From: Undaria pinnatifida | Taxonomy: Eukaryota > Sar > Phaeophyceae > Laminariales > Alariaceae | Length of the DNA: 64,000 nucleotides | Direction: 5' to 3' | Assembly (NCBI GenBank): GCA_012845835.1 | Contig: JABAKD010000009.1 | Coordinates: 8,707,413-8,771,412, forward strand | Shown here: positions 1 to 25,159 of the stretch, one piece after another | How positions within the stretch are numbered: position 1 is the stretch's first letter | Layout of the letters: each line of letters opens with the position of its first letter | Notes under the pieces: model-generated | What the model saw: only the letters and a program-made list of their open reading frames with translations | Databases searched by the model: none | What the model was told of the DNA's origin: nothing | Translations under genes and position numbers: made by a program

Positions 1-345
1 GCAGATGGAAGTTTCCATGGCAATAGTGGAAGCTTCCATGGAAGTAGATGGGAGGTAATGAAGATGAAAGCTTCCATGGCAGTAGTGCAAGCTTCTGTGG
101 AAGTAGATGGATGATTCCATGGAAGAAGATGGAAGCTTCCATGGAAGTTTAGTCGACCTACCATGGAAGTAGTGGAAGATTCTGTAGGAATGATGGAAGC
201 TTCCATAAAAGTGGTGAAGCTCCCATGGAAGTGGCGGAAGCTTCCATGGAAGTAGTGGAAGATTCCATGGAAATACTGGAAGCTTCTGTGGGAATGATGG
301 AGGCTTCCATGGAAGTGGTGGAAGATTCCATGGAATCCATCTACT
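1..345. repeat. Satellite built on GGAAGCTTCCATGG-like units
   Basis: Short palindromic words (GGAAGCTTCCATGG and variants GGAAGATTCCATGG) alternate with AAGTAGTG or AAGTAGATG spacers from the first base to about 345. The array is cut by the window edge. Translations across it are only low-complexity Met/Ser/Glu-rich peptides, so it is not treated as coding. Confidence 0.85.
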
Positions 346-3300: not shown

Positions 3301-3469
3301 CCAAAAAAGAGGAGAAAAAAAAGCTTCCAACAACAAAAAGTCTCGATTGTTGCGCCATTCCCCAAGAAATGTCCACACCGAGAGTACGGGCCACATCGTT
3401 TATCGACCTTTCTTTGAATAGGTTTTATAATTGACAATTACCTGACCGGGAAACGGGTTTTTCTCAGTT
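346..3469. other. No recognisable gene
   Basis: About 3.1 kb in which the open frames are short, overlap on both strands and show no domain. Apart from the CCCT microsatellite nothing structured was found. One copy of the TACCAGGTA word lies at 2745-2753. Confidence 0.5.
811..905. repeat. (CCCT)n microsatellite
   Basis: A nearly pure CCCT/CCTC run. It makes artificial Pro/Ser/Leu-rich frames on the plus strand and Gly/Arg/Glu-rich frames on the minus strand. Confidence 0.9.
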
Positions 3470-3678
3470 CAGGGCTTTTCGCGGGTCGGTTCACCACTCA
3501 CTCACGGGTCGGTATGACCCGACCCGATCCGTGCGCTGTGAAAAACTGCTGACCCGACCGCTTCTGACCCGTGTGATTTCGAACTATTAATATCTATCTC
3601 CTGACTGACTCGACCCGCGATATTTGGCAACTTCCTGAGACGATCCGCGGATCGGATCATGACCCGAGGAAAGCGCTG
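3470..3678. mobile_element. Short hAT-like element with GGGTC subterminal repeats
   Basis: The left end reads CAGGGCTTTTCGCGGGTC and the reverse complement of the right end CAGCGCTTTCCTCGGGTC, an imperfect 18-bp terminal inverted repeat. Between them are several GACCCGACCC/GGGTCGGGT words in both orientations and no coding capacity. The terminus matches the elements at 30.4 kb and 37.2-39.0 kb. CAGGG ends suggest a hAT-type non-autonomous element, but no clear 8-bp target duplication was found here. Confidence 0.6.
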
Positions 3679-3935
3679 TTTTTCCTCATTTCGACATCAA
3701 TCAGTTCGGTATTCCAAATTTTTTAACCGACGGCAAACTCACGGCTGACGTCCTTGAAATATTTCTTATAAAATAATGCACTGCCGGCGCAGCAACAAAT
3801 GTGGCGGAAATTGGAGTCATAATAGTAATCGTTATCGTTCCAAATGGTTGCGAACATGTCGGACGAGTAAAAAATCGAGTAATGACCAACCCAGCCTGTA
3901 TAAAGATAACATTCCCTGGTGGGACCCGTTTGATC

Positions 3936-3958
3936 TACCTGGTACATGATACCAGGTA
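3936..3958. repeat. Paired TACCTGGTA / TACCAGGTA words
   Basis: Two inverted copies of one 9-bp word, 3936-3944 and 3950-3958, separated by 5 bp, just left of the pogo-like element. The same word recurs across the window (see findings). Confidence 0.6.
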
Positions 3959-3975
3959 TGTTGATAGTCTATATA

Positions 3976-5955
3976 CAGTCGACCCCGCTTTAAGGAAACC
4001 AAAATTAAGGAAACTCCCCGAGTAAAGGAAACATTTTTTCGCCGAAACACAATACCCCGCAGAATGTAATATATACAAGGGCTCCGCTCCGCGGGCGGCT
4101 GACGCCGCCCGCTACGCTCGCGCAAGGCAGGGAAGAATGCAACTAAAAACATAGACTATCTAAAGGGGGCAGAAAGAAGAGGCCCACGATTTGGTGCGAA
4201 CAGCGATTTGATAATGCCAAGAGCTGCTTGTGCAGAGCAAATTGCCCTGTTGTGCTCAGCTGTGCTGTGTGCTTTTGTTACCGGTGTTACGTTCTGATCG
4301 GCAGTACGGGGGTAATTTGCGTGGGGGAAAAAACAGGGGGCCGTGAAAGATCAAATACATAGTCTATAGAAGAAGAAAAAAGAGGAAAAGTAGTACTCCG
4401 TACACAACAACACACGCATTATACCCGGTACTGCTCTATGTTCGAAAGAAAGCACACAGCGCCCGCAGCGACACAGCACCACAGCGACACAGCACCGCAG
4501 CGACACAGCACCGCAGCGAAGGGCACGGCACCGCACCGCATGGCTCCGCACGGCTCCGCACGGCTCCGCACGGCTCCGCACGGCGCTACGCTGCGCTGCT
4601 GGGCCATATATAGCCGGATTGATCTGAGCTGGGCGTGCATGTGATCCAACGGCGTAGTATCTGATGGTACGTACAAACCTGGTGTAGTAGTACAGGTATG
4701 TACTATTGGCGTTTCGTATATCGAACGGCTCCGCACGGCGCTACGCTGCGCTGCTGGGCCATATATAGCCGGATTGATCTGAGCTGAGCGTGCATGTGAT
4801 CCATCAGCGTAGTATCTGATGGTACGTACAAACCTGGTGTAGTAGTACCGGTATGTACTATCTCGCCCTCCGAGTTGTAAAGTGGTGGGGAAGCGCTACG
4901 GCGACAGGTGGCCAGCGTAGGGAGCTGAAAGTCGGTGCCTACTCGTAGAACACTAAAAAGCCGGCAGTCAACTTCAACATCTCACGACTTTGCGCCGTAG
5001 ATGCGTCGTAGAGTCGTAGATCATACGTTGGATAAAGTTACGGAATGAAGAAAATAAAAAGAGAACGGGAAAAAAGGAAACGAAGAAAGCGAAGAAAGTA
5101 AGGAACGCGAAGAATGCCGGGAAGGTTCTCCGAGAGGGGGGTTTAGGCAGGCGTGTTCCAAGTGGGAGCGCTGAGAGCGGAGCAGGTCCCATTAACCAAG
5201 TGAATAAGGTTTAAAAAAAAATCGAGGACAAATGTAATTATATCTATGGGGGGGTCCAGATTCTAGTCCGCGGGCCCCCCTTAAAACACGTCTCAGCGTA
5301 TCCTCTTCGCCAGCAGAGAGTAGTCTGCTGCTTCACCTGCTGTCTGCGGTACGCAAAGATTCGTTTCACCTACCGGTGCGTCCTCTGCATCTGGGTTAAA
5401 ACGGTGCGGGGAACCCACGTGCACGATCACGAACCTCGTCTCGGGTATCCACAGCACCTCCTTTCGAAAACGGTGCATTCGTTCACGCATGAAACACAAG
5501 TCAAGCGCAGGTCCAAGGAGGGGGGGGAGCTGCAGGCAACTCTTCGCGATATGTGGAGGAAGTCGTAGCGTTGAGTGTTCGCGGATTGTCGGCCATACGC
5601 CGTATTGTATGCTTGTGTCTGAATGGCGCTCCAGTAGAGAGTAACGCAGGAGAGTTTCTGCGTGCGCTCCCCCTGGGGTAAACAAGAGTCACCAGGTGAA
5701 GTTGAAGTGTCCATCAGGTATTTTCCGTGCTGTGCGGTGGTGTTCAGCAATAAACAATTACTTTCTCGCCGAGTCCCAGCCTCTTTTTTTATTCCAACAA
5801 TGCCCTGCCCAGGGCGCACCTTTTGACGTATGTACCACCACCATTGACCCCGGGGATGGTGCGTTCTGATCCCCTGAAGTTTAAGGAAACTTCCTCGCGT
5901 TATGGAAACATTTTTCGAAGCAAAACCATAAGTTTCCTTAAAGCGGGGTCGACTG
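3976..5955. mobile_element. pogo/Tc1-mariner-like element with TA target duplication
   Basis: Both ends carry the inverted repeat CAGTCGACCCCGCTTTAAGG (left from 3976, right complement ending 5955), continuing as AAAC. Each is flanked by TA (3974-3975 and 5956-5957). CAGT ends plus TA duplication are typical of pogo/Tigger elements. AAGGAAAC words recur inside each end as subterminal repeats. The 1,980 bp interior holds a tandem repeat (4445-4860) and minus-strand open frames around 5293-6020, the longest running out through the right end, none recognisable as transposase. It is probably non-autonomous. Confidence 0.75.
4445..4862. repeat. Direct repeats inside the pogo-like element
   Basis: A short CAGCGACACAGCAC and GCTCCGCACG array (about 4465-4580) is followed by two copies of a roughly 130 bp sequence, starting near 4574 and 4731, each containing GGGCCATATATAGCCGGATT and ending in a TACNGGTATGTACTA motif. 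The copies differ by only a few substitutions. Confidence 0.8.
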
Positions 5956-9252: not shown

Positions 9253-9345
9253 GGGTTGCGGCGGATTGACATGACGTCACGTAAAATTAAATTCGTAGCG
9301 CAATGCTGCTTAAGTCTGTACAACTCCACCAGTCAATCCACAGAA
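9253..9345 (+). repeat. Dispersed repeat, possible LTR fragment
   Basis: This stretch resembles 24890-24965, sharing GTTGCGGCGGATTG, CATGACG, CACGTAAAAT and GTCTGTACAACTCCA in order. The second copy follows the gypsy-like element, so both may be pieces of its long terminal repeat or of a related solo LTR. Confidence 0.45.
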
Positions 9346-10552
9346 AGCGTCCCCACAACAGATAGTCTCAGTCCAAATAAATACACACAAAACCAAACGA
9401 GGGAAAAAGGAACCTGAACTTGATCTGACACGAGCGTGAGTGACTGCGAACCGAGCCTGAGTACAGCGATCGTTACCGTAAGGTATTGTAGGAGGTTTCA
9501 TCCGGATATCTGTTACAAGCGGACGGGGCCGCCTCAACGGCGGCCCCGTCATCCAGTAGAGACGCCCCGGTCTGAGGGCGAGGATGGGAGATATGTGAAA
9601 GTAGAGGTGGTTGTTGTTACATATTGAGCTGTATCGGGGGATACCAAGAGGGTGAGGCTGTGGTGGTTTGTGGTCACGTACAGGGGACTGTGAGATGCCA
9701 CCTTGCGATGCGACGTCCGATCGAATCTAGCGTTGGCGGAGATTCACCTATGTTTCTCCGCCTCAGAGGATCTGTCAGGGACTACTGTGAGGTGCTACCT
9801 TGCGATGGTGAAAACGAACACTACTTGAGGCAGATGTAACTTGCTTGTAGACCGACTTTTCGCGGGTCTGAACACCGTGCCGTGATGGAAAAACTTTGTA
9901 GAGCACGCCCAGCCTTTTCAAGGCCTTTCAACTTGTAAGGGCGCGTAGAGGTGAAGGGTTCCTGTATTGTACTGTTTTCAGAGTAGGCTAAGTTGCGCCG
10001 CTTCGCTCTGGTCAGCCGCGTTCTGCTCTCTCGTTAGCGCTCAGCCTAAAACGTCATCCTAGGTACCCATACAAGGATTGGGCGGGGTCGCCTATCGGCG
10101 GCCCCGCCCTCCGAAACAGTTGCGCAAAAAGGATGTGACTGAGAGAAGGGGAAGGTAATGGACGGTACCAAGAGGTTGAGGTGCTACATGTATTTGAAAC
10201 ATATGTCATTAAAAATGGTGGGTTTTGTCGGGAGTGGTTTTGCGCGCAGCGTTTGTGAAGGTAGGTGTCGGTGCACTGCATAGAGGAATTGAAAATACGA
10301 AACAAAACCCAAATAAGGAGGTTGTGGATAGGCGAGAAATAGACGGGAAAAAAATAGAAAGAAAACAGCGGTTGAAAAAATAAATAAACCGTGGCTGAAA
10401 CGTAATATATAAGGAAAGCTCAATTGGCAAAGGTAGTAGCCAGACCTTGGCTGAATCCGGAGAAGGATTCGGACGGCATGGCATGCGCCGCGAGCGCTGA
10501 AGAATGGGAGACGAATTCCGTATGTTTATCAAGTGGAAAAATCCTATCGCAA

Positions 10553-10645
10553 CTGCAGGAAAGAAACACAACGTTCATTAGAGCAATCAGACCAACTTAA
10601 CTGCAGGAAAGAAACACAACGTTCATTAGAGCAATCAGACCAAGT
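10553..10645. repeat. Tandem duplication, about 46-bp unit
   Basis: The sequence CTGCAGGAAAGAAACACAAC... through GCAATCAGACCAA is present twice in immediate succession with no internal differences seen. Confidence 0.85.
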
Positions 10646-10699
10646 CCATGGCACCAAGGTACGCGAAAAATGCAAATCTACGCCGGAAGGCAGACCATT

Positions 10700-11320
10700 C
10701 ATTTCTTTTAGCAGCAGCAGCGGCGGGGGTAGAGGTGGCCGATGGCCCATCGAGGAAGTGCGGCACAGCAGCAGTAGTGTCTACAGTAGCAGTCGTCTGG
10801 CAAGGGGGAGGGGGCACACACACTGGCTCCGCGAGCTCAAGACCGCAGACAGCTGATTTTTCATTATTCGAAACGTACTCACCGGAGACACCAACAGCAG
10901 CGGCAGCAGCAGCACAGCAGCTACACTTCACAAAAAAACATGATTCTATAAATGAATGTGTAAAACATCAGCTCTGAGTACGACCGATTGAATGGTTGAA
11001 ACTCAACTTTGCAAGCTGCGTGGTACATGGTTATAAAAACAACACAAGAAAAGGCGGAAAAGTTTTGGAACATGCACAGAAGAGAGTGAAAGCAGCACCA
11101 GCAGCAGCAACACACAGCAGTAGCAGCAGCAGCGGCGGCGGCGGGCGCAGAGGCGGGCGATAGCCCAGCAAGGAATTGCGGCACAGCAGCTGTAGTGTCT
11201 ACAGTACTGTCTACAGCAGCGGCCATCCGGCAGGAGGAGGAGCACACACAGCACTGGCACAGGCTAGGCGAGGTCATGACCACAGAAAGTCGATTTTTTA
11301 TTTTAAGAAACAAACGCAGT
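10700..11320. repeat. CAG-rich diverged duplication
   Basis: Two copies of roughly 220 bp (about 10705-10870 and 11095-11305) share CAGCAG runs, GGCGGGNGNAGAGG, GTGTCTACAGTA and a block ending in ...GATTTTT. Frames across them are Ala/Ser or Cys/Leu runs produced by the trinucleotide repeat. Further CAG runs follow to 11400. Confidence 0.7.
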
Positions 11321-12494
11321 AGTCAGCATCAGGAGCAGCAGCAGGAGCAGCAGCTGTAGTAGCAGCAGCAGCAGCAGCAGCAGCGGCGGCACTACCACAG
11401 CAGTACAACAGCAGTGGAGCAGTACGTACCGACCAATCCACAACGGCAGCACACAGCAGTACGGCAGGAGCTGGGTGGGATTTGCACTTTCTTACGATTC
11501 TCCAGCTTCCAGGGGAGAGCGCGAGCCGTCCCCGGGAGAGGCTTTTCATGCCCCCCGCTCGCGGAGTTGGGACTCGTCGGCGTGCCTGAACACCGTGCCG
11601 TGATGGAAAAACTTTGTAGAGCACGCCCAGCCCTTTCAAGTTCTTTCAACTTGTAAGGGCGCGTAGAGGTGAAGGGTTCCTTTACTATACTATTTTCAGA
11701 GTAGGCTAAGTTGCGCCGCTTCGCTCTGGTCAGCCGCGTTCTGCTCTCTCGTTAGCGCTCAGCCTAAAACGTCATCCTAGGTACCCACAAGCGGACGGGG
11801 CCGCCTCAACGGCGGCCCCGTCATCCAGTAGAGGCGCCCCGGTCTGAGGGCGAGGATGGGAGATATGTGAAAGTAGAGGTGGTTGTTGTTACATATTGAG
11901 CTGTATCGGGGGATACCAAGAGGGTGAGGCTGTAGTGGTTTGTGGTCACGTACAGGGGACTGTGTACCTCTACGGGCAAAAAGACAGTACGGAGCCACTT
12001 GGACGGTCGCACCCCACCATCACAGCAGTAGTACAACAGCAGTACAACAGCAGTGGAGCAGCACGTACCGACCAATCCATAGCGGCCGCGAGTCGACGGG
12101 TACTTATACCGTAACTGAGACTCATACGGTACAGGAGTACGATGAAGAAAACCTTTGCTGCAAGCTGCAGTGAGCTGGGTGGGATTTGCACTTTTTTTAC
12201 GATTCTCTACCTTTCGGGGAAGATCGCTAGCCGTCCCCGGGAGAGACTTCTCATGCCCCGCGCTCGCGGAGTTGGGACTCGTCGGCGTGCCTGAACACCG
12301 TGCCGTGATGGAAAAACTTTGTAGAGCACGCCCAGCCCTTTCAAGTTCTTTCAACTTGTAAGGGCGCGTAGAGGTGAAGGGTTCCTTTACTATACTGTTT
12401 TCAGAGTAGGCTAAGTTTCGCCGCTTCGCTCTGGTCAGCCGCGTTCTGCTCTCTCGTTAGCCCTCAGCCTAAAACGTCATCCTAGGTACCCATA

Positions 12495-13860
12495 TATATA
12501 GCACTACTAGCGCTTGGAAGGGGACTGCGTGAGACAAGACTGTTGTTTGCAGGCAGCTATTGTAACAAGCAGACGGGAGGAATCATCCTGAAGGCATACA
12601 CGAAGGAAGCGAACTAGAAGCGGTGAGAGACTAGGGACAAGGGATTGGAGACCTGGGTGCGCGTGTCTAAAATAGCTCTTGCCCTTCGTTGCCATGGCGC
12701 TTCAGCTGAGATCCGTGTGGGTCGATAATCTCGCTTGACTCACAGGTAGAAATGCAGACGTAAATACTACAAAGAAGGTAGAAAAGTACAGCAGCAAGCC
12801 GGGCCATCTTTGGTTGAAATTCATAAAATAATGTACGGAAAATAAAAACTTGGCAGTCTAGACAAGTCTTCTATATGAATGATTTTACGGGATGTTGAAG
12901 AAAGTTCCATAACAGTTCAACTCTAATTTATCGTTGAAAATCTCGCTTGAAGCAGTATCACGAACCCCACACGCTTCAGGATAACCGAGGCAGACACTGC
13001 AGAAATAGAAACAACAGCAGGCCACGCGAGTGATGAGAATCGGTGGTCGTGATCTCTAGATGGTGGAGGCGAGGAATGAGACGCCATCAAGTTTTATACA
13101 AAAAAATGACGGAGTCACGCAGTCCATGCTACGTACAGCAGTAGTAGTGTAGTACAGAGGGCAGGAGCGAGATTCTCCCCGCTTTGACTCACTTATTTTT
13201 TTTTTGTACGATGCGATGTAGACAAAACATTAGTACCAGGTATGCATCAATGGTATGAATTGCTTCGCAAGGCATGCATTTTTTGCTTCCATTGCTTTAT
13301 TTCGTGATCGTACTTTTACGACGAGTACTACTACTGTATTATTGTTGTATGTACCAGGTATGTATGCCATCCTCGAGAATCGCTTGCACACGGCGCCGCG
13401 AAGTTCTTTTGCTGTATATACGTGCTATTGCTCGTAATACAATCAAAACTGAGTCGACCTCCATGTGACAAACAAACTGCAGTCTGTGTCCATTGTGCTG
13501 TATACGCGCGTATCATATGTTCTGTAAGTCGTTGCAGGTTGTGGCAGGTCTTTTGTACATAGTGTGGTACGTAGTAGTGTGGTGATGTCTTCGTGTCGGG
13601 CGTGTAGGAGACAGTGCACGTATGGCCTCTGGCTGGCTCAAAATGCGCCAAAATCAATTGAAAGCTAGACAGAGTAGACAAATCCAGGAGGCTGGCCCAT
13701 GACAGGTGTCCTAGCGTGTGATATTTACTTGGTTTTAGTGCTGTACCTGTTTTGACACCAAACTTACCAGGCATACCTGATTTTGACTAAAAAAAAATAT
13801 TTTGTTTGTTTTGTGTATAAGTACGTACTCAATCGATAAGGGATGCATACAGCAAGCGAT
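12495..13860. other. No recognisable gene
   Basis: Frames are short and unsupported by any motif. Two exact TACCAGGTA words lie at 13234-13242 and 13352-13360. Confidence 0.5.
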
Positions 13861-14300
13861 GGTACAATCCAGCCCCTCCCCCCCCCCCCCCCCCCCCGGC
13901 CCCCACCCCCCACCTTCCCCACCTCCCCAGCCCCCCCACCCCATCCCACCCCCACCCCCTCGAACACTCCGCCCTCTCTCTACTCACTGATTGTACGACT
14001 TACCCCAGCATATACATGATAAACTGATGCATTCTTTCCAAAACCGTCACATTTATCCCCTCAAAATAGAGTATAGATTCCATGCACAAATTGTTGAGCT
14101 GCCCCACCCGCCCCACCCCCGCCCCACCCCCCCCCCCTATGATAAACAGGTGCATTTTTTTTTTTTTTTTTTTTTTCCCAAAAAACCGTCAGATTTATCC
14201 CCTTAAAGTATTTATAGCTTCCACGCACAAATTGCCCGCCCGTCCGCCCCCGCCCTCCATTCCCCCCCCCCCCCCCCCCCCCCCCCTTCCCCGCCCCTCC
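13861..14300. repeat. Poly-C blocks and short dispersed repeats
   Basis: Long C homopolymers (about 13877-13898 and 14262-14287) alternate with copies of a 40-50 bp motif containing ACCGTCA(G/C)ATTTATCCCCT and TTCCACGCACAAATTG. The same motif recurs near 15890, 16770 and 16990. A poly-T run is at 14156-14176. Confidence 0.8.
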
Positions 14301-14643
14301 AACCCCGCTCTCGCTTTTGATCAAAACCAGCCCCCCACGTCCTTCAAAACTCCGCCCCCCCCTCACCGGTTATTCGACTTACAGGATTCACTTGATAAAC
14401 GGATACATTTCCCTCCACAGCTGTCAGATTTGGTCCCCCTCAGAAACGGATTTTATAGTTTCCGCGCACAGACTGACTAACATCACCCTGTTGACCCTGA
14501 TAGCTACACTGTAGTTGTAAGGGGAGTCGCCGACCTATATCCTTAATGAGGACACACAACCCGTACTGCGCGCGATTGGAGTATCACACACAGCTTGCAA
14601 AGATGAGTTTCGACAAAATGTTCGATCTCACAGCTGGAGTGTA
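14283..14643 (+). repeat. Long direct repeat, copy 1 (about 360 bp)
   Basis: Nearly identical to 16826-17170. It starts in CCCCTCC-rich sequence before TTTTGATCAAAA(C/T)CAG and runs through GGAGTCGCCGACCTATATCC to CACAGCTGGAGTGTA. Partial copies occur near 16340-16440 and 17610-17645. The pair is 2.5 kb apart in the same orientation, like the ends of a small LTR-type element, but no TG...CA ends, primer site or coding region was found. Confidence 0.75.
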
Positions 14644-15069
14644 TTATAATTTTCATGATATCCGTAAACCAATTTTTTCAAATTTTGAACTGGGAGAGGT
14701 ATTATACATGCACCCCTGCCTGCTAGTGAGCGTTTTCTACTGGCAAACTGGGGGGGTATTTATGTAAGCAGGATGGTGAGAACGGAGTAACATGAACTGT
14801 TGAGCCAGCAACATAATATTAAATGTAGTAATAAAATATTATACATCATTTGCTCATACATAGTATATACCTAGTCGTTTTCGAGCAAGCGGTTTCGTTG
14901 ACATATATATACTACCTGGCTTGATGCAAAGGAAAGGAACACCACTCGGCGATCATCTACTACACGCTAGGGCATGTTTTCAGGAGCACCACTAACAAGA
15001 GCACCAGACATGGACGCGGCATCTACAGGACCACAACATCTTCGACGACAGTGGGGAGAAAACAGGACG

Positions 15070-15690
15070 TATAATCGTACACTAGATAATAACAATGTGA
15101 AAAAGAAGTACAGACAGATATGTTAACACTGCGGTAGACCACACTACCAACCTATTACGCAGGGTATTTCGTGCCTCCGGCCGTTTGCATGATCGCCTGA
15201 CAACCTCTACCAAACGCAGTAGCATATGCCTAACAAAGTAAAGTCAACCTCGCGTTCAATAGTGGCGACATCGCATACCACGTCACCTCGCTTGGTGTAT
15301 TTGTAAGGTGCATCATCTCTGTCTTAGAGTTGGCGACCTCAGAGCCCCACATCGGCACGGTAAAAATCATGGGCATAAAATCGTATATGTGAGACAACAA
15401 TAATGTGAAAAGGAGATACAGACAGACATGTTAAATTGGGGCAAACCGCACTACTACCAACTTATTACGTAGGGTATTCCGTACATACCGTCTGCATGAT
15501 CGCCTCCCAACCTATCTATGCCAGGCGAAGCATGACTAACGAAGTAACGTAATTGAGCGCGTGTACACTACGCGTTTCTTTCAAAACAATAACGATTCGC
15601 TTTTCTCCCTTTCGTTCTCATCGGCGGTGACATTGCACGACCACATCACCTCGCCTGTTGTATTTGGCAATAAGTATATCTTTCTTATAA
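15070..15690. repeat. Tandem duplication of about 315 bp
   Basis: Two diverged copies (about 15070-15335 and 15385-15690) share AATGTGAAAA(G/A)(G/A)AG(A/T)TACAGACAGA, TTACG(C/T)AGGGTATT(T/C)CGT, GCATGATCGCCT and CACCTCGC(T/C). It lies between the two 360-bp direct repeats. Confidence 0.75.
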
Positions 15691-16825
15691 TTAGCGATGT
15701 CAGAAAATAATGGTATTTACATTATTGTACCTATCTTTTGAAATATTCTATCTTTCGATCCATGTACAATAACAAATTATGAAGCTTTTTAACACGTTGT
15801 TTAACTGGGTTGCATACTACATGTAACATCGAACCTTCTAGAATAATAAACATTACCAGGCGGGTGATATAAAGAGGTGTCTTCTTGCTAAAACCGTCAG
15901 ATTCGTCCCCTTTAAGGGTTTATAGTTTCCGCGCACATATTGAAATGCCCCCCCCTCCCGCCCCCCCCCCCTATCCCTCTTGTTCAAACGCCCCACTTAA
16001 AATCAAAATCTACCAGAGTAGTAAGCACTACCAGCCAGCTGATATCATCTCATTATCCTTCTAGCCATCCATGCCGTAGCTCCAACTCATCTCCGCCCTC
16101 CTCCCCCCCGCCCCCGACCCTTTTGTTCCCCGCCCAGTTCGTTCAAACGCCCCACTTACAATCGAAATCGGCCAGAGTAATAAACACTTCTAAGCAATTG
16201 ATATCACGCCATTATCTTTCCAGCCATCCATGACGTAGCTTTCATTCATCTCCCCTCCCCCCCTCCAACGCCCCCTCCTTCCCCACACCCCGCACCATCG
16301 CTTAGACCCAGCACCGCGCGTATAGCAAGCCCCTACATATATGATTAATACGCGCGATCGAAGGATCACACAAAATGTTGCGAAGATCAGTGTCGACCAA
16401 ATCCTTCATCTCATAGCTGGAGTGTGTTTTAATGTTATATGTGACCTAAACCTCTTGAACCCCCCCCCCCCCCCCCCCTCCTTTTTTTTTTTTCCGTTCT
16501 CTTGCTCAAACGCCGCACCTAATATCGAAATCCGCCAGAGTAATAAACACTTCAATGCCCTGGATATCACCTCATTATCTTTCTAGAGCCGTCCATGCCA
16601 CTGCTGCAATCCCCCCCCCCCCCCGCCCCCAACGCCCCCTCCTTCCCAACCACCCGCACCATCGCCTAGACCTACGTCGTAGCACCACGCGTATAGCAAA
16701 CCCCTACATCTATGCGACCTAAAGCCCTCCCCCCCCCCTGCCACATCCCCCCCCCCTCCCCCACAAGAGGGATTCATAGTTTCCACGCACAAATTGAGCT
16801 GCCCCACCTGTCCCTCCCCCCCCTC

Positions 16826-17170
16826 CCCCCCTCCCGCCCCCCTTTTGATCAAAATCAGGCCCCTACGTCCTTCAAAACTCCGCCCTCCCGTCGCCGGTTA
16901 TTCGACTTACAGGATTCACTTGATAAACTGATGCATTTCCTTCCACAGCTGTCAGATTTTGTCCCCCTCAAAAACGGGTTTTATAGTTTCCGCGCACAGA
17001 CTGACTAACATCACCCTGTTGACCCTGATTGCTACACTGTAGTTGCAAGGGGAGTCGCCGACCTATATCCTTAATGAGCACACACAACCCGTAATACGCG
17101 CGATCGGAGTATCACACACAGCTTGCAAAGATGAGTTTCGACAAAATCTTCGATCTCACAGCTGGAGTGT
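16826..17170 (+). repeat. Long direct repeat, copy 2
   Basis: Partner of 14283-14643 with scattered substitutions, followed after 440 bp by a third, truncated end (17610-17645, ATCTTCGATCTCACAGCTGG). Confidence 0.75.
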
Positions 17171-17694
17171 AATTTAATTTTTACAATATACCTACTACTG
17201 CTGTATATGTGGTCAAAATAGTGTACGGTTGTGAGTATAAAGTATTATATGTATATGTTATTATTGGGGATACTTGTTTGTTGTACCTTGTATGGTGTGA
17301 GAAATCGATTGGTCTGGAGGATTAGCTTCTTTTTTTTTTTTTTCTATCCTCCGGCGGATGGGGAAAAATAAAGCTTGAGCTCACCACACTTCCACGTATT
17401 TTCATACGCGTCGTGTGTCGATTTAACTCAGTTGCTTTCGCAGCCCAACGCTAGCTGGCGCACCCTTCGGGTCTTATTGTAGGTATAGCGTATGGAGGAT
17501 TAGCAATACAGAAGAATAGAACACAGGTTGGTCTTGTTTATTATACCTTATTATAACTAAGTACACTGGTTGGTATTTATACTACGCGAAATCGTAATCT
17601 ACATATATATATCGACAAAATCTTCGATCTCACAGCTGGAGTGGATTTTTATTTCTATAATATATCATATACAGATACGAGTAATGAAGGGAAA

Positions 17695-18440
17695 CCGCGG
17701 TGGATGAAAGTAGGAAGGAGACCGCAGACAGGGTAGCAAGGTACCAGGCCGACTAGTAGGTGGAACCTTTCTATCTATGCCACTCGTACCGCCAACTGCT
17801 GCGGCTGCTCGGAATGTGATGTCTTGGTACTTTGATTTTTCCGTGAATTTATTTTTTTCTTTCTTTTTTTTTTTTTTTTTTTTTTTTCTTCCCCCTTCTT
17901 ATCCTTATGAAGGGAGTCTTGCATGGTGGGTAGGTGACGAGCCTGTTTTATTTGGCCCTCCCAGTCTTCCTTCTTCTACTTGTTTCTTTTTTCCGGGGTA
18001 TTTTTTCCCTTTCTTTCCCCCTTGCATGTCCATTTTGGCTCATGCTCGGGGTATGTATCTATCTCCCGTGCTTTGGCTCCCCTTTTTATTTATTTATTTA
18101 TTTATTTTGTCTTGGTTTCTTTCGTTGTTTCTCTCTTTTACAAGGTATTTTGGTTTAATGAGAAGAACACAAAGGGGGGAGGGGGGGAAACAGAAGGAGT
18201 AGAAGGAAAGCCGTCCAAGGGAATGGGGGCAGGGGGGGCAACAGGAGGAATAGAAGGGAGACCGCGGTGGACGAAGGCAGGAAGGAGATGGCAGACAGGG
18301 TAGCAAGGTACCAGGCTGACTAGTAGGTACATAGCACTTTTCGTCTTTCTCTGGGGTATTTTTTTCCCCTTTGTTCCCTCCTTGCGTGTCCAGGTTTTTG
18401 GCTCGTGTTCGGATTATCTTATTTTGGTTTTACTTTACTT
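17695..18440. repeat. Local duplication in T-rich DNA
   Basis: An 80-bp block (AGGAAGGAGA..GCAGACAGGGTAGCAAGGTACCAGGC) occurs at 17695-17765 and 18240-18330. After each copy, T/C-rich DNA with GGGGTATTTTTT and TTGC(A/G)TGTCCA follows (about 17994 and 18352). The hydrophobic Phe/Leu-rich frames here come from poly-T and are not taken as membrane proteins. Confidence 0.7.
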
Positions 18441-18934
18441 TATTTTATTTCATTTTATTATGTTTCTTTTCCGAGCTTTGGCTCTCCTTTCCGGTTGGGT
18501 TGTTTCTTCGATTTCCCCTTCATTTTGTTTGTTTCATTTTTTGTTTTATTTTTATCTTTGTTTTTATTTGTTTTCTTATTTTGTTTTTGTTTTTTGTTTT
18601 TTGTTTTTGTTTTTGTTTTTGTTTATTTCGTATTTCTCTCTTCCAATGTATTTCTGTTGCTGACGTATGTATGTTGTGCCTGTCGTACCCAGTACTAGGG
18701 CATGACATTGCGTTGTCGAATGCATTACGATGCATTATCTCTGTGTCGTGGCTTGTGACCACAGAGCTGATCTTTCTAGGGTGAAGAATCAGTACGGACA
18801 CTGGGTGTGCTGGATGTCGACGAGTAGAAGAACGGTTTAATGTGAAGAACACACACACAATGAAGGGCGAAGACACCTCTAGAGGCACAACTAACTAATC
18901 TACATTGCTGACGAATACGAGTCACCTGAAATCG

Positions 18935-20070
18935 CGTGCTCGCATGTATGTGTGGTATACGTGCTCGTAATTTTGTAGGTAACATACCAGTGCTGTCAAC
19001 CATGACGAAGAATCCTCGAAACCAACGCCCGAAGACTCAGCTCACCGTGGCAATACACGTCAAGAAGTATCGACTCTCTTTGCCCCTTTGTCGACAGATA
19101 TGTACTATTAATACCACGTCTCAATATCTGGACTAAAGGTGACCGATTTCCGTTCTCGATTCTTGTTGTGGGTAGTTTTAACAGCTGATTTGATCTTGGT
19201 CTTGGTTGCTGGTTTTGCCATTTCCTTCGGGATTCTGACTGTAAAAGTAGTTTTGGTGGCTGTGTCTTCTTTTTCTTTTGATGAAATCCCGTGCTCCCAT
19301 GTGTGGTATACCTGCTCGTAATTTGGAGGTAACATACCAGTGCTGCCAACCATGACGAAGAATCTTCGAAACCAACGCCCGAAGACTCAGTTCACCATGA
19401 CAATACACGTTCAATCAGCCATCTTCTCTAGAAGAAGCCCTGCTCGTAGTTTGTAGGTAACATACCAGTGCTGCCAACCATGACGAAGAATCATCGAAAC
19501 CAACGCCCTAAGACTCAGTTCACCATGGCAATACATAGTGAACTGAGTCTTAGGGCGTTGGTTTCGAGGATTCTTCGTCATGGTTGGCAGCACTGGTATA
19601 TACTGGTATACATAGTGAACTGAGTCTTAGGGCGTTGGTTTCGAGGATTCTTCGTCATGGTTGGCAGCACTGGTATGTTACCTACAAATTACGAGCAGGG
19701 CTTCTTCTAGAGAAGATGGCTGATTGACGTGTATTGTCATGGTGAACTGAGTCTTCGGGCGTTGGTTTCGAAGATTCTTCGTCATGGTTGGCAGCACTGG
19801 TATGTTACCTCCAAATTACGAGCAGGTATACCACACATGGGAGCACGGGATTTCATCAAAAGAAGAAGAGGAAACAGCCAACAAAAACTTCTTTTACAGT
19901 CAGAATCCCGAAGGAAATGGCAAAAACAGCAATCAAGACCAAGATCAAATCAGCTGTTAAAACTACCCACAACAAGGATCGAGAACGGAAATCGGTCACC
20001 TTTAGTCCAGATATTGAGACGTGGTATCAATAGTACATATCTGTTGACAAAGGGGTAAAGAGAGTCGATA
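18935..20070. mobile_element. Fold-back palindrome element
   Basis: About 19064-19535 is repeated inverted at 19547-20070 with only a few differences, separated by roughly 12 bp, giving a hairpin with arms near 0.5 kb. Inside is a block of about 100 bp (GTAACATACCAGTGCTG... to ...CCATGGCAATACA). It is present three times forward (near 18950, 19300, 19440) and three times reversed (near 19550, 19615, 19735). Long modular inverted arms are typical of Foldback-type elements. High arm identity implies recent formation or gene conversion. Confidence 0.75.
19788..20033 (+). CDS. 81-residue frame in the right arm, mirrored in the left arm
   Basis: An 81-residue frame in the right arm has a counterpart of equal length on the minus strand of the left arm (19108-19353). 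The C-terminal 45 or so residues agree in both: a basic Lys/Thr-rich stretch beginning TVRIPKEMAK and a tail RKSVTFSPDIETWY. The N-terminal halves read in different frames because of a small indel. I do not recognise the protein. Similarity follows automatically from the palindrome, and the few arm differences include amino-acid changes, so coding is not established. Confidence 0.25.
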   Translation: MAALVCYLQITSRYTTHGSTGFHQKKKRKQPTKTSFTVRIPKEMAKTAIKTKIKSAVKTTHNKDRERKSVTFSPDIETWYQ

Positions 20071-21400
20071 ATAGGGCTGGGTTATTTTGGAAAATTATAG
20101 CGAGGGCTGACTAAGTTGTATAAAATGTAGGAAGTAGATTAAGGAATACGAGACCAATAGGACATCGGGAAAGGAGGATCATCATCACCGATTACGAGTA
20201 AGTTCGTACGTGATATATCACTGTAGGAATGAATGTGCTTGCGTCCATCATACAGGTTGAAAATGAGTGCAGGTCTGTTAGTTGATCTACATTTGATGCA
20301 TACTGTGAGACGATCACAAGACAAGAGCTTTTGCAGGCAATTTGGTTTTGGCCTTTGTGATGGGGATTTTATGTCTTCGCAGGTTCTACAGGCACTGCAA
20401 GGTCGTTCTCACAGGTGTTTCAGGAGCAATGGTGCTGCAAACTGGTTCTAGTCTTTAATTCTGTATGAGGAATGTAAGCCTTTCTATAGCTGCTCTTTCT
20501 CATGCTAAAAACTGACCGGAATTGGAAACATGGTTTAGGGACATTATCATATTGGAATGGGAACGGGGGAAGCTCGATAAGTACGTTGGAATTTTGAGGA
20601 TTGTAAAGAATGCATTAATATTAATCAATGGAAACAAAATAATATTCCAGATGTCAGTGGAGCTATACACGTCGTGGGAATTACTGCATACAGCGGAGCT
20701 GCTTACATCTGGGGAGCTACTACACAAGTACTTTCAAGGCGCGTAGGAATTTACTACCTATAGTTATGCATGAATAAATGTAGACCTTGAAACTTTTATC
20801 GGTTGTTACCTTAATATGCATGGATGTTTATGCCTCGATAGATGTTTACAAAATGATAGATTCAAAATGATAGATTCTGCTGTTCCAAATCCGTTCCGAT
20901 AGTGTGTAAAGGATGTACAACAATGACAGACATAGCGAATGCCTACAATGAGATTGATGTGTCTTGGACACCTCACCTGAGGGATTCCATACGTTACTCT
21001 GTTAGTGAAGACTCGAGCTTTCGAAGGGCAGCATTTTCGAAGGTTTGCATATATATATTATGGCAAGGGGACAACTTTCAATAAACCAGGAAGGCAAATA
21101 TACATGTACTCGAAACGTTTTCCCACCCCCCTTGTCCCAAGCCACTGTTCATACCCGTTTGGTGGGGACAACTCGGTGTTACTAGATTCCATCGACCCCC
21201 TGCACTCCACTCGTCTCCCTAGGCTACATCGTTGGATACCATCTTCACCTTGTACGACGCAGCTTCGTCGAGTACATCGTGCACCACGAAGCCTCGTCGA
21301 GTCCGTCACATACTGCACAGCTCCTACTGCACAGCTCCATTCATATCCACACCCGCAGACCCATCGGAGGCAGATACTCAACAGGCCAAGCTTGTCATTG
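20071..21400. other. No recognisable gene; upstream flank of the gypsy-like element
   Basis: I looked here for reverse transcriptase or RNase H sequence expected upstream of a gypsy integrase and found none. Frames are short. The segment 20640-20735 has short imperfect repeats (GTGGGAATTACTGCATACAG, GGAGCTGCTTACATCTGGGG). Confidence 0.45.
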
Positions 21401-21407
21401 CACCAGA

Positions 21408-22800
21408 GCTTCCAGTGGTGGTCATGCTCGACTGTGGGGGGGGGGCAGCATCCTTGTCTCAGAGGGATTGCTGACGATCAAAGGAGCAGTAGACAAGGAC
21501 TGGAGAGCATTGGAATGCACCAGAGCAAACATACTGGACAACGGCGCGAGGCAACTTAGGGTGACAACAGGGTCGCAGGAATGCCTAAGCATGTTGAGAA
21601 AGGTGAGACCAGACGTGGTGGTCGGTGACGCCTGCACGAGGTTTGAAGGGGTGCGAGAGGAGGAGGGAGTATCCAGAGCGAGTAGCTTAGCCCAAGCTTC
21701 CATCGCCTCAGACGCGCAAGTTTTTATACTCGAATGTTTGGGCAACCTTCTGCGAACAACGGAAGGAAACGACGAGATTCTCCCCGCTCGTGGACAAAGC
21801 GGAGATACTGGCGAGCCAAGTAGGGATTCCGTGGAGAAGGAAACGGACGTTCGTGGTAGGAATCAAAGGAGGTCTTGCCACGAAGGGGAAGCTAGCCGTT
21901 TGGAAGCGAAGGTTGGAGAAGGTAAAGCAACCAGTTCAGGAATTGAGGGTAATTCTGGGACGAAGGGGCGCATACTTCCTGAAGAGAGGTAACGGAGAGC
22001 GAGCGATTTATTCGTTCAACGAACCCATCGTCTCTTTGAACCGTGCTCACATCATGAGGGAAAAGCCAACCGAAAGGTATATCGCACACCCAGCGGATGC
22101 GGCACGCCTTGAAGAAGCTGAAGAGTTGCACTTCAACGACTACGCCAAAATCACCACAGGGCAGGAACACTACATGATCCCGCATACGGCCAGCAAAAGC
22201 GCAGCGGCAAACGTCATCGCATATTTCACGTCTCCTCCGATGCTACGAGCAGTATTAGTTGAACTAGCTGTTCAAGGCTTACTGGGAAAACCGGTACCAG
22301 AGGTCGTGGAACTGGAAGGATTGGCCTGCATGGTGTTTGAGGATTACCTCGCAGCAGCAAAAGCCTTTGAGGTGACAAGAGCGGTCACGAGATCGCAGGC
22401 AAAGGCCACTTCCCAGGAACCGGAGGTTGTCTGGGAGGCAGAACCGCCGTTACCTGAGGAGAAGATGGAGAATGCACCGGCGCAGACAATCACTACTACT
22501 GAGCTACCAGTGAAAGTTGATCACCCACGCAAACGCAGGGGACAGAGGGAGCCCATCCCGAAACCGAAACGGCAACGTGATCTGTTTGAGGAACCACCGA
22601 AGGGCACCAGCAGCCGTTCAAGTGGATCAGGGAAAGAGACCAAGGGGTCCCAGCGGTCGGAGCCATCCATGCTAGAAAGGGTGACAGCTATTCTCCAGAA
22701 TATGCCACAGCTGATGCAGAGGCAGCGCGAAGATATGGTACTTGTCAGGATTCGGAAAGAACTCCAGGAAGCGGGAAACCGAGGGGTGGCGAATATGTGA
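21408..22800 (+). pseudogene. Decayed C5-cytosine DNA methyltransferase-like domain plus linker
   Basis: Motifs appear in the order of bacterial-type C5 methyltransferases, which methylate cytosine using S-adenosylmethionine. A motif I-like VVMLDCGGG sits just before a 10-G run where the frame shifts. AVDKDWRALECTRANIL resembles the motif II region. DVVVGDACTRFEGV corresponds to motif IV and keeps the Cys, but not the usual Pro-Pro before it. FILECLGNLL stands where motif VI ENV is expected and keeps Glu. RRKRTFVVG resembles motif VIII. HPADAARLEEAEEL and a Ser/Ala/Asn-rich stretch match motifs IX and X. A second frameshift falls near 21770. The 336-codon frame from 21790 then carries a Pro-rich, strongly basic linker. 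Identification rests on motif order only. Confidence 0.6.
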
Positions 22801-23545
22801 TGGATGATAACGGCCTCTTGTGGGTAGCACCTGGGAAAGGTCCCACGACTTGCAGTTCCCCAATATCTCGTTCCAGGGATTATGGCACTGGCGCACAGCA
22901 CCTATGGACATCCAGGGACGGCGAGAACTGCAGCTTTGATTAGTCGTCGGTACTGCTGGCCCACCCTCATTAGGGACGTTAGAGACTACGTCCCCTCGTG
23001 TGGGTGCAGGCGTCGCAAGCGGTCAGCGAGTCAGCGGGTTGCCATGCTACCGGCGAGGTTTCTGCGACCCGGCGAAGTACTCGAAGTCGGCATTCAGGAC
23101 ATGGGGGTAAAGTCGGACGCAGGCAACAAAGTTCTACTGGTGGCGGTCGACAAAGCCAGCAAGTTCTTGTTCAGCTTCCCGCTCCCCACGAAAGAAGCAC
23201 TCGGAGTAGCGAGGAAACCGCTCGAAGTGATGGTTACTTTTGGGCTACCGCTCTATGTTCGCAGTGATCCGGGATCCGAGTTCACGGCAGAGGTGATGCA
23301 ACACTTATGCAAATGGTTGAACGTGGCCATCGCATATGGGCCTGCCGACCATCCAGATGCACAGGGGACGGTGGAGAGACTGGGGGGTGGCTACACGAAT
23401 CACTAGGGGAACTGTACAAGACTTGGCCTCGCAGATGAGACGAGTATGTACAGTCGGCACTGTGGATCCATCGTACCACGCCGGACCTGCGCTTACCGGG
23501 GAAGCCAACTTCCTTCCGTCTTTTCTTCGGTCATGATGCACGCAT
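22801..23545 (+). pseudogene. Gypsy-type integrase: zinc-binding domain and DDE core
   Basis: The long frame at 22882-23406 opens with AHSTYGHPGT and ends its first domain in YVPSCGCRRRK, the HHCC zinc-binding fold of retroviral-type integrases, here with CxC rather than CxxC. The catalytic core follows: Asp in GIQDMG, Asp in VRSDPGSEF, Glu in GTVERLG, with spacing typical of a D-D-E transferase. After the Glu the frame shifts at a 6-G run (about 23381-23386) and continues as HESLGELYKTW and a proline-rich segment to about 23540. Upstream of 22882, VPRLAVPQYLVPG is the usual gypsy lead-in and is in frame with the core. Such enzymes insert the element's cDNA into chromosomes. Confidence 0.8.
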
Positions 23546-23596
23546 GAAACTTGATGCTACGCCCCCCTAGGTCGATGGTGGTGATTCAGAGGCGGG

Positions 23597-24469
23597 ATGC
23601 ACAGTTACGTGGCCGACAAACGTCAAGCGTACAAGGAGGTACGGGATGTACGGGTGGCTCTATTGAAAAGACATGAACACAGACAGAAAAGTCGTGAGAG
23701 TCGGAATGCTGAAATCGGTCGGACCTCGGCGGGAACCCGTGTTGTTGTCGGAGACAAGGTGCTGGTGAAGGATGCGGAGTCTGTGATGGCAAGGGAGGGC
23801 ATACATCATAAACTATCCCACGAGCACTGGACCGGTCCTTGGGAGGTGATTGAAGCTATCTTACCAGGACTCAGCTAGATCGTCACGATGAATGGGAGAG
23901 GGATTCGCCGACGACGGGCGTCAGCAGCGAATATCAAGATGTTCCACTTACGTCCGGACGACGTTCGTCACGACTTCGAAAACGAATATGCTCACCTGGC
24001 ATGGGGAGTTGACTTCGGACTTGGGGAGCCGTCGATTGTAGTGTCGCCTATGTATACCCTAATAGACAGAAAGGCTGTGATGGGTCAGGGCAATGCTTGG
24101 AAGTGGCGATACAAGGGACGATTCGTCGATGGCACGGAGTCGCAATGGCTGTCCGAAGAAGAGGCATGAGACAGTTTCACCCCTTTACAGCTGGACGTTT
24201 TCCATGCGCTGTGGGAAACATATCACGGAGCGGAGTGCCAGGCAAGGCCGACTTCGACGCTAACGCGGAAGGAAAGCGATGGGATCGATCGCGAACATGC
24301 GTTGAAACAACACCCCGTGGGGACCGTGATCTGGAGGGAATTTGCGGACGCTGAAGGAAACAAGAAGCGTCACCTTTTAAAGGTCTTCGACAACAAGTCA
24401 CCGTACTGGCGGGTTCGGTACGCAGACGGAGATTGGGAGGGGCTCATTGAACGTGAGATCCTGAAATAA
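23597..24469 (+). pseudogene. Integrase C-terminal region with chromodomain-like and Tudor-like segments
   Basis: Three in-frame pieces are separated by stops at 23876 and 24166. The first has a basic coiled stretch, then GDKVLVKD and HWTGPWEV, the beta-barrel signature of gypsy integrase C-termini. The second ends in WKWRYKGRF..ESQWLSEEE, which resembles a chromodomain. The third ends in YWRVRYADGDWEGLIEREI, a Tudor-like motif common in stramenopile proteins. Chromodomains on integrases usually guide insertion to particular chromatin, which is inference here. The stops may mark decay or base errors. Confidence 0.6.
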
Positions 24470-24889
24470 AGGAGGACCGGAAAATCGCAATCTAGTTCCC
24501 CGTAAACACGAGGAACGTGAAGTGGAGTTCGATGGAGAATTGGAGAAGATGCTAGGCGAAGATCGACTAGCGAGCAAGATCAAGGCCTCGGCCTACCCAG
24601 GTCAACGGGAAAAGCCGGGAAGTGGTGGATAAGAGGCTTTCAGCTGGTGCGCTTGATGGGAAATTCTAGCAAGTCCAGCAGTACTGATCTGGGACCTAAT
24701 GCGGAAAAGTGCGAGGCCCAGGGTCCCTACCCCCAAAGAGACGCCTTTCCCTGAAAATGGTAGACGCCACTCATTCGAGCCTTCGGGTAATTGAAACACG
24801 ACTAAGTGTGGGAAAAGGCCCTCAGTCTTACTCCAGTGTATCCGCAGCCCGGTTAGCACGGTATTCTTAGGAAGCCGTGCTGGGGGCGT

Positions 24890-24965
24890 GTTGCGGCGGA
24901 TTGCCATGACGCCACGTAAAATACGCAGCGGAATGCTGCCTAGGTCTGTACAACTCCAGTCAGTC
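24890..24965 (+). repeat. Possible 3' LTR start after the gypsy-like element
   Basis: Begins TGTTGCGGCGGATTG after the G-rich run GCTGGGGGCG and matches 9253-9345. The position 420 bp after the last coding block suits a 3' LTR, but no 5' partner was found near 21 kb. Confidence 0.35.
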
Positions 24966-25159
24966 TCTGGACATACAAGCCGCGGTCACAGGTGTCGTTC
25001 TTCCTCCCCCCTCCCCGGTTGTTGTCTTCAATATTTTTGGCGCATAGGGTTCAGCACCCACTGATCGTCGATTTTTATCGAGTGTTGCTAACTCACGCTC
25101 TCGTGCTTTCCGCAAGCCAATTAGTGCACAAGACGAAAAATTATTCGAGTACGCACTCG

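Follow-up and report, generated by a model that had tools for sequence, protein, structure and literature searches.

Does a retrotransposon in a kelp carry a cytosine methyltransferase, and if so, does the enzyme still work? The question comes from a 64,000-nucleotide (nt) stretch of the brown alga Undaria pinnatifida (GenBank assembly GCA_012845835.1, contig JABAKD010000009.1, positions 8,707,413 to 8,771,412), which we call the window. A preliminary description of its letters had read the motif order of a C5-cytosine methyltransferase on the plus strand just upstream of a Ty3/gypsy-type integrase, and proposed that the element might mark its own or host DNA. Aligning the window by tblastn with the pol frame of a recent copy, we found that motif order at 21391-22266 (+), split over three frames by two frameshifts, and a zinc-finger and DDE integrase soon after it. 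A C5-derived domain in the pol of a brown-algal Ty3/gypsy family is thus what the data support, as the description had it. The idea of DNA marking was not supported, and we lean towards a captured domain that now serves this pol as a binding or accessory module and would no longer make lasting methylation.

The descent was established mainly through relatives of the window copy, since the window domain alone matches PF00145 at only E 0.058. We searched the Undaria pinnatifida genome (511.15 Mb; the published assembly size is 511.28 Mb, PMC7058681; sources cited by PMC number were available in part, and what we say of them applies to those parts). PF00145 matched 35 places at E <= 1, of which 32 belong to this gypsy family and the remaining three all lie within one region of C33; 15 of the 35 six-frame places exceeded the cut-off, and 13 of these 15 belong to the family. 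With the domain itself as query there were at least 136 matching stretches genome-wide (131 of 331 candidates scored), a count in which broken copies yield multiple stretches and the window copy appears twice.

Looking for intact copies with long terminal repeats (LTRs) and reverse transcriptase (RT), we found L031 (C26:15246000-15255999), which has an open pol frame of 1694 amino acids (aa). Its LTRs are 441 bp long, mutually identical and have TG..CA ends (TGTTG..TTACA). TGTC flanks it on both sides, lying inside a TTATGTC repeat, and TGGGGCTTCAGC past the 5' LTR and GGGGGGA ahead of the 3' LTR stand at the primer-site and polypurine-tract positions. With RT, RNase H and DDE integrase in that order, direct LTRs and a short target duplication, L031 has the hallmarks of a Ty3/gypsy element, and the domain sits between RNase H and the zinc finger. 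Unless the LTRs were equalised by conversion or in the assembly, L031 inserted recently. One in-frame stop, in the post-protease part just ahead of the pol frame, is common to L031, L032, L033 and L038, which are the closest to L031 among 11 copies examined of its subfamily (A, below); the other seven lack it. The shared stop in this group, together with the identical LTRs, suggests read-through or mobilisation in trans. At about 7864-8209 of L031 (minus strand) there are 24-bp repeats in a frame upstream of pol, and this frame had no Pfam match.

The domain is an insert and not an ordinary gypsy linker, the alternative named in the preliminary description, because three related gypsy pols of the same genome lack the segment and have a shorter gap between RNase H and integrase. 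These pols, L067, L068 and L069, were taken from at least 151 integrase matches (150 of 2344 candidates scored) and lie outside the family, with RT-RNase H identities to it of 66.5%, 53.6% and 65.1%, respectively. In all three, RT is followed by RNase H and then integrase, as in L031, with the domain absent; L067 and L068 gave no methyltransferase match up to E 0.1 in Pfam, and L069 was compared by BLAST only. From RNase H to the zinc finger there are 241 aa in L067 and L069 and 266 aa in L068 versus 587 aa in L031, so about 320-345 aa were added, which matches the size of the domain. A BLAST alignment of L069 ran about 40 residues into the domain, which does not show a domain stub in the sister linker, since shuffled sequences did equally well (390/2000 and 211/2000 shuffles scored at least as high as the real L069 alignments; the counts for L067 were 1703 and 867). 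The RT tree sets subfamilies A and B apart (support 1.000) from the outgroup and from L067, L068 and L069. The integrase tree places a fast-evolving piece of subfamily C beside L067/L069 (0.889), so a single early capture with later loss in L067/L069 is possible.

Motifs are named here by the textbook nomenclature of C5 methyltransferases. On the C5 METHYLTRANSFERASE question three profile libraries agree on the enzyme class: PF00145 was matched by 16 of 28 natural pieces of the domain at E <= 1 (best 7.7e-6), TIGR00675 dcm by 10 of 17 (best 0.0017) and PHROG 363 by 11 of 17 (best 1.2e-4), counts that are not independent because the pieces are interrelated. The best competing Pfam family among the 28 pieces was a single AraC_binding_2 match (E 0.0017). 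Single copies mostly score below the cut-off: the L031 pol frame matches PF00145 at E 0.0059, the L031 segment by itself scores 19.4 bits versus a 22-bit cut-off, and 20 of the 35 six-frame places also fall short. An hhalign comparison of the family profile with 27 C5 enzymes gave a probability of 91 and an E of about 1e-6 spanning motifs IV-VIII, whereas none of 60 column shuffles exceeded 2.6 and reversing the profile gave 0.6. The 27 template enzymes, mostly metagenome proteins, were reached via P0088, which is itself a distant match of the kelp-family search, so the template was not blind and the shuffles leave this uncontrolled; the matches to PF00145, TIGR00675 and PHROG 363 are free of this flaw. 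P0088 (E 0.034) was the one C5 enzyme among 89 proteins found at E <= 1 with a 28-piece profile (best 7996 candidates scored), the other 88 being the kelp family by identity (at least 38%).

Motifs IV, VI and VIII are colinear with those of C5 enzymes, including bacterial and phage ones (TIGR00675 dcm, PHROG 363), and similarly spaced. Motif IV reads DVVVGDAC versus DVVVGGPPC, motif VI VFILECLGNLL versus VFVMENVPQLL, and motif VIII GIPWRRKRTFVVG versus GVPQQRQRAFIVG; IADFTSPP aligns to the IGNAVPP of motif X, where the canonical GN(A/S)V is not found. The kelp domain differs from twelve aligned C5 enzymes in having only 20-26% identity to them, in its changed PPCQ, ENV and GNAV, and in being fused into a retroelement polyprotein. 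Up to E 10 the family profile had no match among PDB sequences, querying proteins with the complete pol frame and with a region also gave no match, and none of 33 stretches matched in a viral_contigs scan was a relative. Judged from these profiles and motifs, the domain descends from a C5-cytosine methyltransferase.

Three subfamilies retain the domain, and the window copy belongs to A. Between B and A the domain is about 40% identical (37-60% in a further comparison), with RT at 68-72%; C is 30-38% identical to a B query, and L066 (C) is 34-37% identical to A. A domain match was present at 47 loci, and we counted 28 of these, including L031 and the window. Among the other 19, ten repeat counted copies as second cuts (L003, L004, L008, L009, L012, L016, L026, L028, L029, L030), and the rest are L043 and L044 (B) and the A-type, mostly badly broken L007, L010, L024, L027, L045, L046 and L047.

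The full canonical set of PCQ (IV), ENV (VI) and RxR (VIII) is not found: A has GDAC and ECL, with RKR kept. The motif IV Cys is present in 28/28 counted A copies, 6/6 in B and 0/5 in C, and the motif VI Glu in 28/28 in A, 0/6 in B and 2/4 visible in C. The two Arg of motif VIII are present in 28/28 and 27/28 A copies. However, a PF00145 match is what brought 24 of the 28 A copies into the set, a choice that favours retention of Cys, Glu and Arg, and the argument from these residues is weakened further by the 84 of 299 core residues that never differ among A copies. Among uncounted A-type sequences L007, L045, L046, L047 (partly through frameshifts) and P0004 differ at the Cys, and L010, L024 and L027 retain this residue. 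On visual inspection the motif II block (D.DWRALEC.R.NG, apart from single-copy exceptions) is the best kept across A, B and C, and it is alike in all three although the Cys is lost in C and the Glu in B. The altered active site suggests that the domain was kept for another use or for unusual chemistry.

The C loci are L054, L055, L058, L059, L060 and L066. In five of them motif I follows the post-protease segment directly, with a junction at one common position. L066 retains the integrase but matches neither RT nor RNase H. This structure marks subfamily C as an amplified non-autonomous deletion derivative.

We estimated the ratio of nonsynonymous to synonymous differences (pN/pS) against L031 using only gap-free codons in the L031 register, dropping stops and gapped codons. 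Across eight copies with RT, domain and integrase the domain has a pN/pS of 0.38 (bootstrap 0.26-0.56), which excludes 1, and elsewhere the values are 0.27 (RT), 0.31 (RNase H) and 0.30 (integrase). The 27 copies besides L031 that have the domain also give 0.38 (0.28-0.53). On these ratios the domain is under purifying selection, which was probably stronger on the source elements because several of the counted copies have decayed. Among nine blocks compared over 27 A copies, motif IV was the most variable (3.89 differences per residue), and VIII (0.95) and I-II (1.35) were the least variable.

If the domain methylated CpG sites lastingly, these should be depleted, and we did not find this footprint in 24 copies or in the CpG observed/expected (o/e) ratios. 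C-to-T changes per site were 0.0322 at CpG (353/10977), 0.0277 at CHG (240/8662) and 0.0280 at CHH (689/24622), measured against an L031 reference that is itself derived and with A/T transitions (0.039) commoner than C-to-T. Inside the domain the CpG rate (0.0201) was below that of CHH (0.0312). The domain-less controls are single pairs, and L069 versus L067 gave 0.0112 for CG and 0.0165 for CHH. CpG o/e was 0.96 in the L031 pol, 0.82-0.95 in the domain-less sisters and 0.99 in the window. The near-equal decay at CpG and CHH together with CpG o/e near 1 points to no lasting CG methylation. It is for this reason, and for the altered PPCQ, ENV and GNAV and the loss of Glu in B and Cys in C, that we regard as unsupported the proposal that the element marks its own or host DNA.

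Our preferred explanation is the binding or accessory module. A kelp Ty3/gypsy element would have captured a whole C5-methyltransferase domain between RNase H and integrase, probably once, and the domain would no longer make lasting cytosine methylation. Whether as part of pol or after release from the polyprotein, it may still fold and bind S-adenosylmethionine and/or nucleic acid (complementary DNA (cDNA) or RNA), and could thereby aid the reverse-transcription/integration complex; examples would be the holding of cDNA or target-site choice with the Tudor-like tail. A binding role seems the likeliest because the block on the cofactor side has stayed even as canonical catalytic residues were eroded in two subfamilies. 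We are evenly divided over a wider statement, that in a lineage whose DNA methylation is reported as lost, a C5 fold under selection with an altered active site is now either a cofactor- or DNA-binding part of integration (a pseudo-enzyme like DNMT3L) or the sole nuclear C5-type DNA methyltransferase, with a non-canonical GDAC site.

Several observations pull the other way. At 0.59 and 0.47 the linkers are likewise below 1 in pN/pS, and since their intervals overlap with the domain's, linkers and domain cannot be told apart. An outright pseudo-enzyme would not need the Cys, Glu and both Arg that A copies retain, a weak point given how those copies were found. In the A copy L051:22-3603 (C27), a natural deletion that preserves the frame runs from just past motif IV to the domain end. 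A frame of 1194 aa remains open in this copy, and the domain may therefore be dispensable. Two AlphaFold models have low confidence (pLDDT 50.8 and 57.7, pTM 0.42 and 0.62); the predicted strands and helices can be read as a Rossmann-like order, and the second alignment included real methyltransferases. Neither an acid at motif III nor motif X can be made out by eye, so cofactor binding is something that we only infer.

It is also conceivable, although we think it unlikely, that subfamily A is an active enzyme which methylates cytosine in its own cDNA, in RNA or at a few host sites with a non-canonical motif IV. The near-complete retention of Cys, Glu and the Arg pair and the purifying selection on the domain would fit, there is a precedent in the retrotransposon DNMTs of KnitGypsy-Dnmt3 and Symbiodinium elements, reported to be able to methylate CGs de novo (PMC5890265), and methylation that is transient or on RNA would leave no trace in CpG decay. 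However, the Pro ahead of the Cys, the Asn of ENV and the GN of motif X are lost, motif IV is the very block that varies most among A copies, B lacks the Glu and C the Cys, and C-to-T is 0.032 at CpG versus 0.028 elsewhere. The host group also counts against it: for brown algae, DNMT1, 3 and 5 are reported absent, with nothing beyond DNMT2 (PMC13076208), and Saccharina is reported with DNMT2 only (PMC6916402).

We consider it improbable that the domain is a passenger, i.e. a captured fragment of no benefit that decays slowly and stays open only through its position in the middle of pol. The frame must be open for the integrase to be translated, the domain has diverged faster than RT between A and B, its pN/pS cannot be told from that of the linkers, L051 has done without most of it, and B and C have lost catalytic residues. 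A pN/pS whose interval excludes 1 speaks against mere decay, as do the roughly 300 aa kept across the A/B split and recognisable in C, and blocks I-II and VIII, which diverge least. Finally, that the segment is no methyltransferase at all, just a gypsy linker or another fold with chance motif likeness, is very improbable and largely refuted by the three agreeing libraries, the colinear motifs, the failure of shuffled and reversed profiles and the sister pols without it, even with the mostly sub-cut-off single-copy scores, the empty PDB search, the low-confidence models and the hhalign template reached via the family's own best distant match.

We compared the kelp element with known systems that resemble it. 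KnitGypsy-Dnmt3 of Klebsormidium nitens is alike in having a C5 domain in a Gypsy Pol frame, several copies and purifying selection (PMC5890265). It is a DNMT3 with DIRS-like repeats, key residues kept, Ka/Ks < 0.2 and a host with profiled methylation (PMC5890265), whereas the kelp element has plain 441-bp LTRs, altered motifs in which the key functional residues are not conserved, a pN/pS of 0.38 and a host group reported without 5-methylcytosine machinery beyond DNMT2. The best reading is that the kelp domain is a separate capture, of a general kind that is already known. SymbioDIRS-Dnmt3 and SymbioLINE-Dnmt are likewise algal retrotransposons with captured C5 methyltransferases, and they differ in being a tyrosine recombinase DIRS and a long interspersed nuclear element, in keeping their functional residues and in having a heavily CG-methylated host (PMC5890265). 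Gypsy-10_Ec32 of Ectocarpus is a brown-algal Gypsy with a Tudor at the Pol C-terminus; it differs in that the available text mentions no C5 domain, a comparison made by description only and with a kelp Tudor match below the cut-off (PMC12477816).

More generally, a 2025 survey notes that in streptophytes and dinoflagellates DNMT3 members lie within LTR Copia and DIRS elements (PMC12344493), and an opinion paper states in general terms that stramenopiles have Gypsy and DIRS elements with methylases, with no element named in the part available (PMC6338049). A 2025 Ectocarpus survey describes an N4C/N6A methylase in a DNA transposon and, in its available text, mentions no C5 domain in Gypsy (PMC12477816). 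The available parts of PMC9998398 and PMC3145265 name no C5-bearing retroelement of this sort. Among the titles and abstract beginnings of the matches listed in the open-access literature, with subscription papers mostly outside that scope, the kelp family is not reported. The family adds a kelp to the hosts in which retroelements are reported to have captured C5 enzymes, and it offers a test case for the use of a methyltransferase to a retrotransposon where host methylation is little or none. A multicopy C5-descended domain is also a candidate source or confounder for methylation surveys. If the bolder reading were true, the GDAC enzyme of this element would be the only C5-type DNA methyltransferase remaining in the nucleus.

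The window copy is an old, dead, internally deleted member of the family, as is clear from its two frameshifts, the internal deletion at 21342/21348, the 5' LTR and leader scattered over 9255-21342, and the shortened 3' LTR. The pieces of its domain are 79-90% identical to the domain of the open copy by tblastn, and it has 90.7% identity to a recent copy across 3.66 kb.

Table 1. Parts of the window copy (window positions) and of the L031 pol frame (residues).
Feature	Position	Strand	Basis or remark
5' LTR, first part	9255-9515	+	blastn, 81% to LTR of L031
5' LTR, second part	12505-12690	+	blastn; ~3 kb of other sequence between both LTR parts
5' leader, fragmented	12691-21342	+	blastn with L063 and L031; other sequence between pieces
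5' leader, pieces 1-4	12691-13371, 13491-13533, 13717-13868, 14623-14862	+	blastn with L063 and L031
5' leader, pieces 5-8	17196-17326, 17490-17602, 20074-20620, 20976-21342	+	blastn with L063 and L031
Internal deletion junction	21343-21347	+	gag/protease frame, RT and RNase H gone; L031 (oriented) jumps from 1230 to 4827
C5-methyltransferase-derived domain	21391-22266	+	residues 646-944 of L031 pol frame; tblastn and family homology
Domain, three frames	21391-21459, 21438-21788, 21775-22266	+	no internal stops in pieces
Motif IV Cys codon	21633-21635	+	GDAC instead of GGPPC; sequence and profile alignment
Motif VI Glu codon	21732-21734	+	ECL instead of ENV; sequence and profile alignment
Motif VIII RRKR	21835-21846	+	both canonical Arg kept (codons 21838-21840, 21844-21846)
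Linker with VTRAVTRSQ	22267-22827	+	VTRAVTR common to domain-less sister pols L067, L069
Ty3/gypsy integrase frame	22828-23406	+	Pfam; 0.56 kb past domain; frame end 23406
H2C2 zinc finger	about 22855-23019	+	Pfam, E 2.2e-13
rve/DDE core	about 23065-23349	+	Pfam, E 1.4e-7, marginally below its cut-off
Integrase C-terminal part	23585-24169	+	two successive open pieces; alignment to L031
C-terminal tail	24170-24469	+	sub-threshold PTM/DIR17 Tudor-like match; Pfam, E 0.0016
3' LTR, first 79 positions	24889-24966	+	blastn; rest cut off
L031 pol: RVT_1	188-348		Pfam
L031 pol: RNase H	421-548		Pfam
L031 pol: domain	646-944		Pfam
L031 pol: H2C2	1145-1199		Pfam
L031 pol: rve	1215-1309		Pfam
L031 pol: Tudor-like	1654-1680		Pfam, sub-cut-off

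A region of C33 holds C5-methyltransferase fragments from outside the family (L039:3857-4613 and L040:5230-6454, about 9.58-9.60 Mb), which lie beside a different gypsy element. PF00145 matched two of the four pieces scanned there (E 4e-8 and 5e-10), and the fragments perhaps come from an endogenous large DNA virus. Within the window itself, 18972-20070 contains long inverted repeats, with 10 arm pairs of 62-190 nt that are 93-98% complementary (for example, 19068-19257 with 19881-20070).

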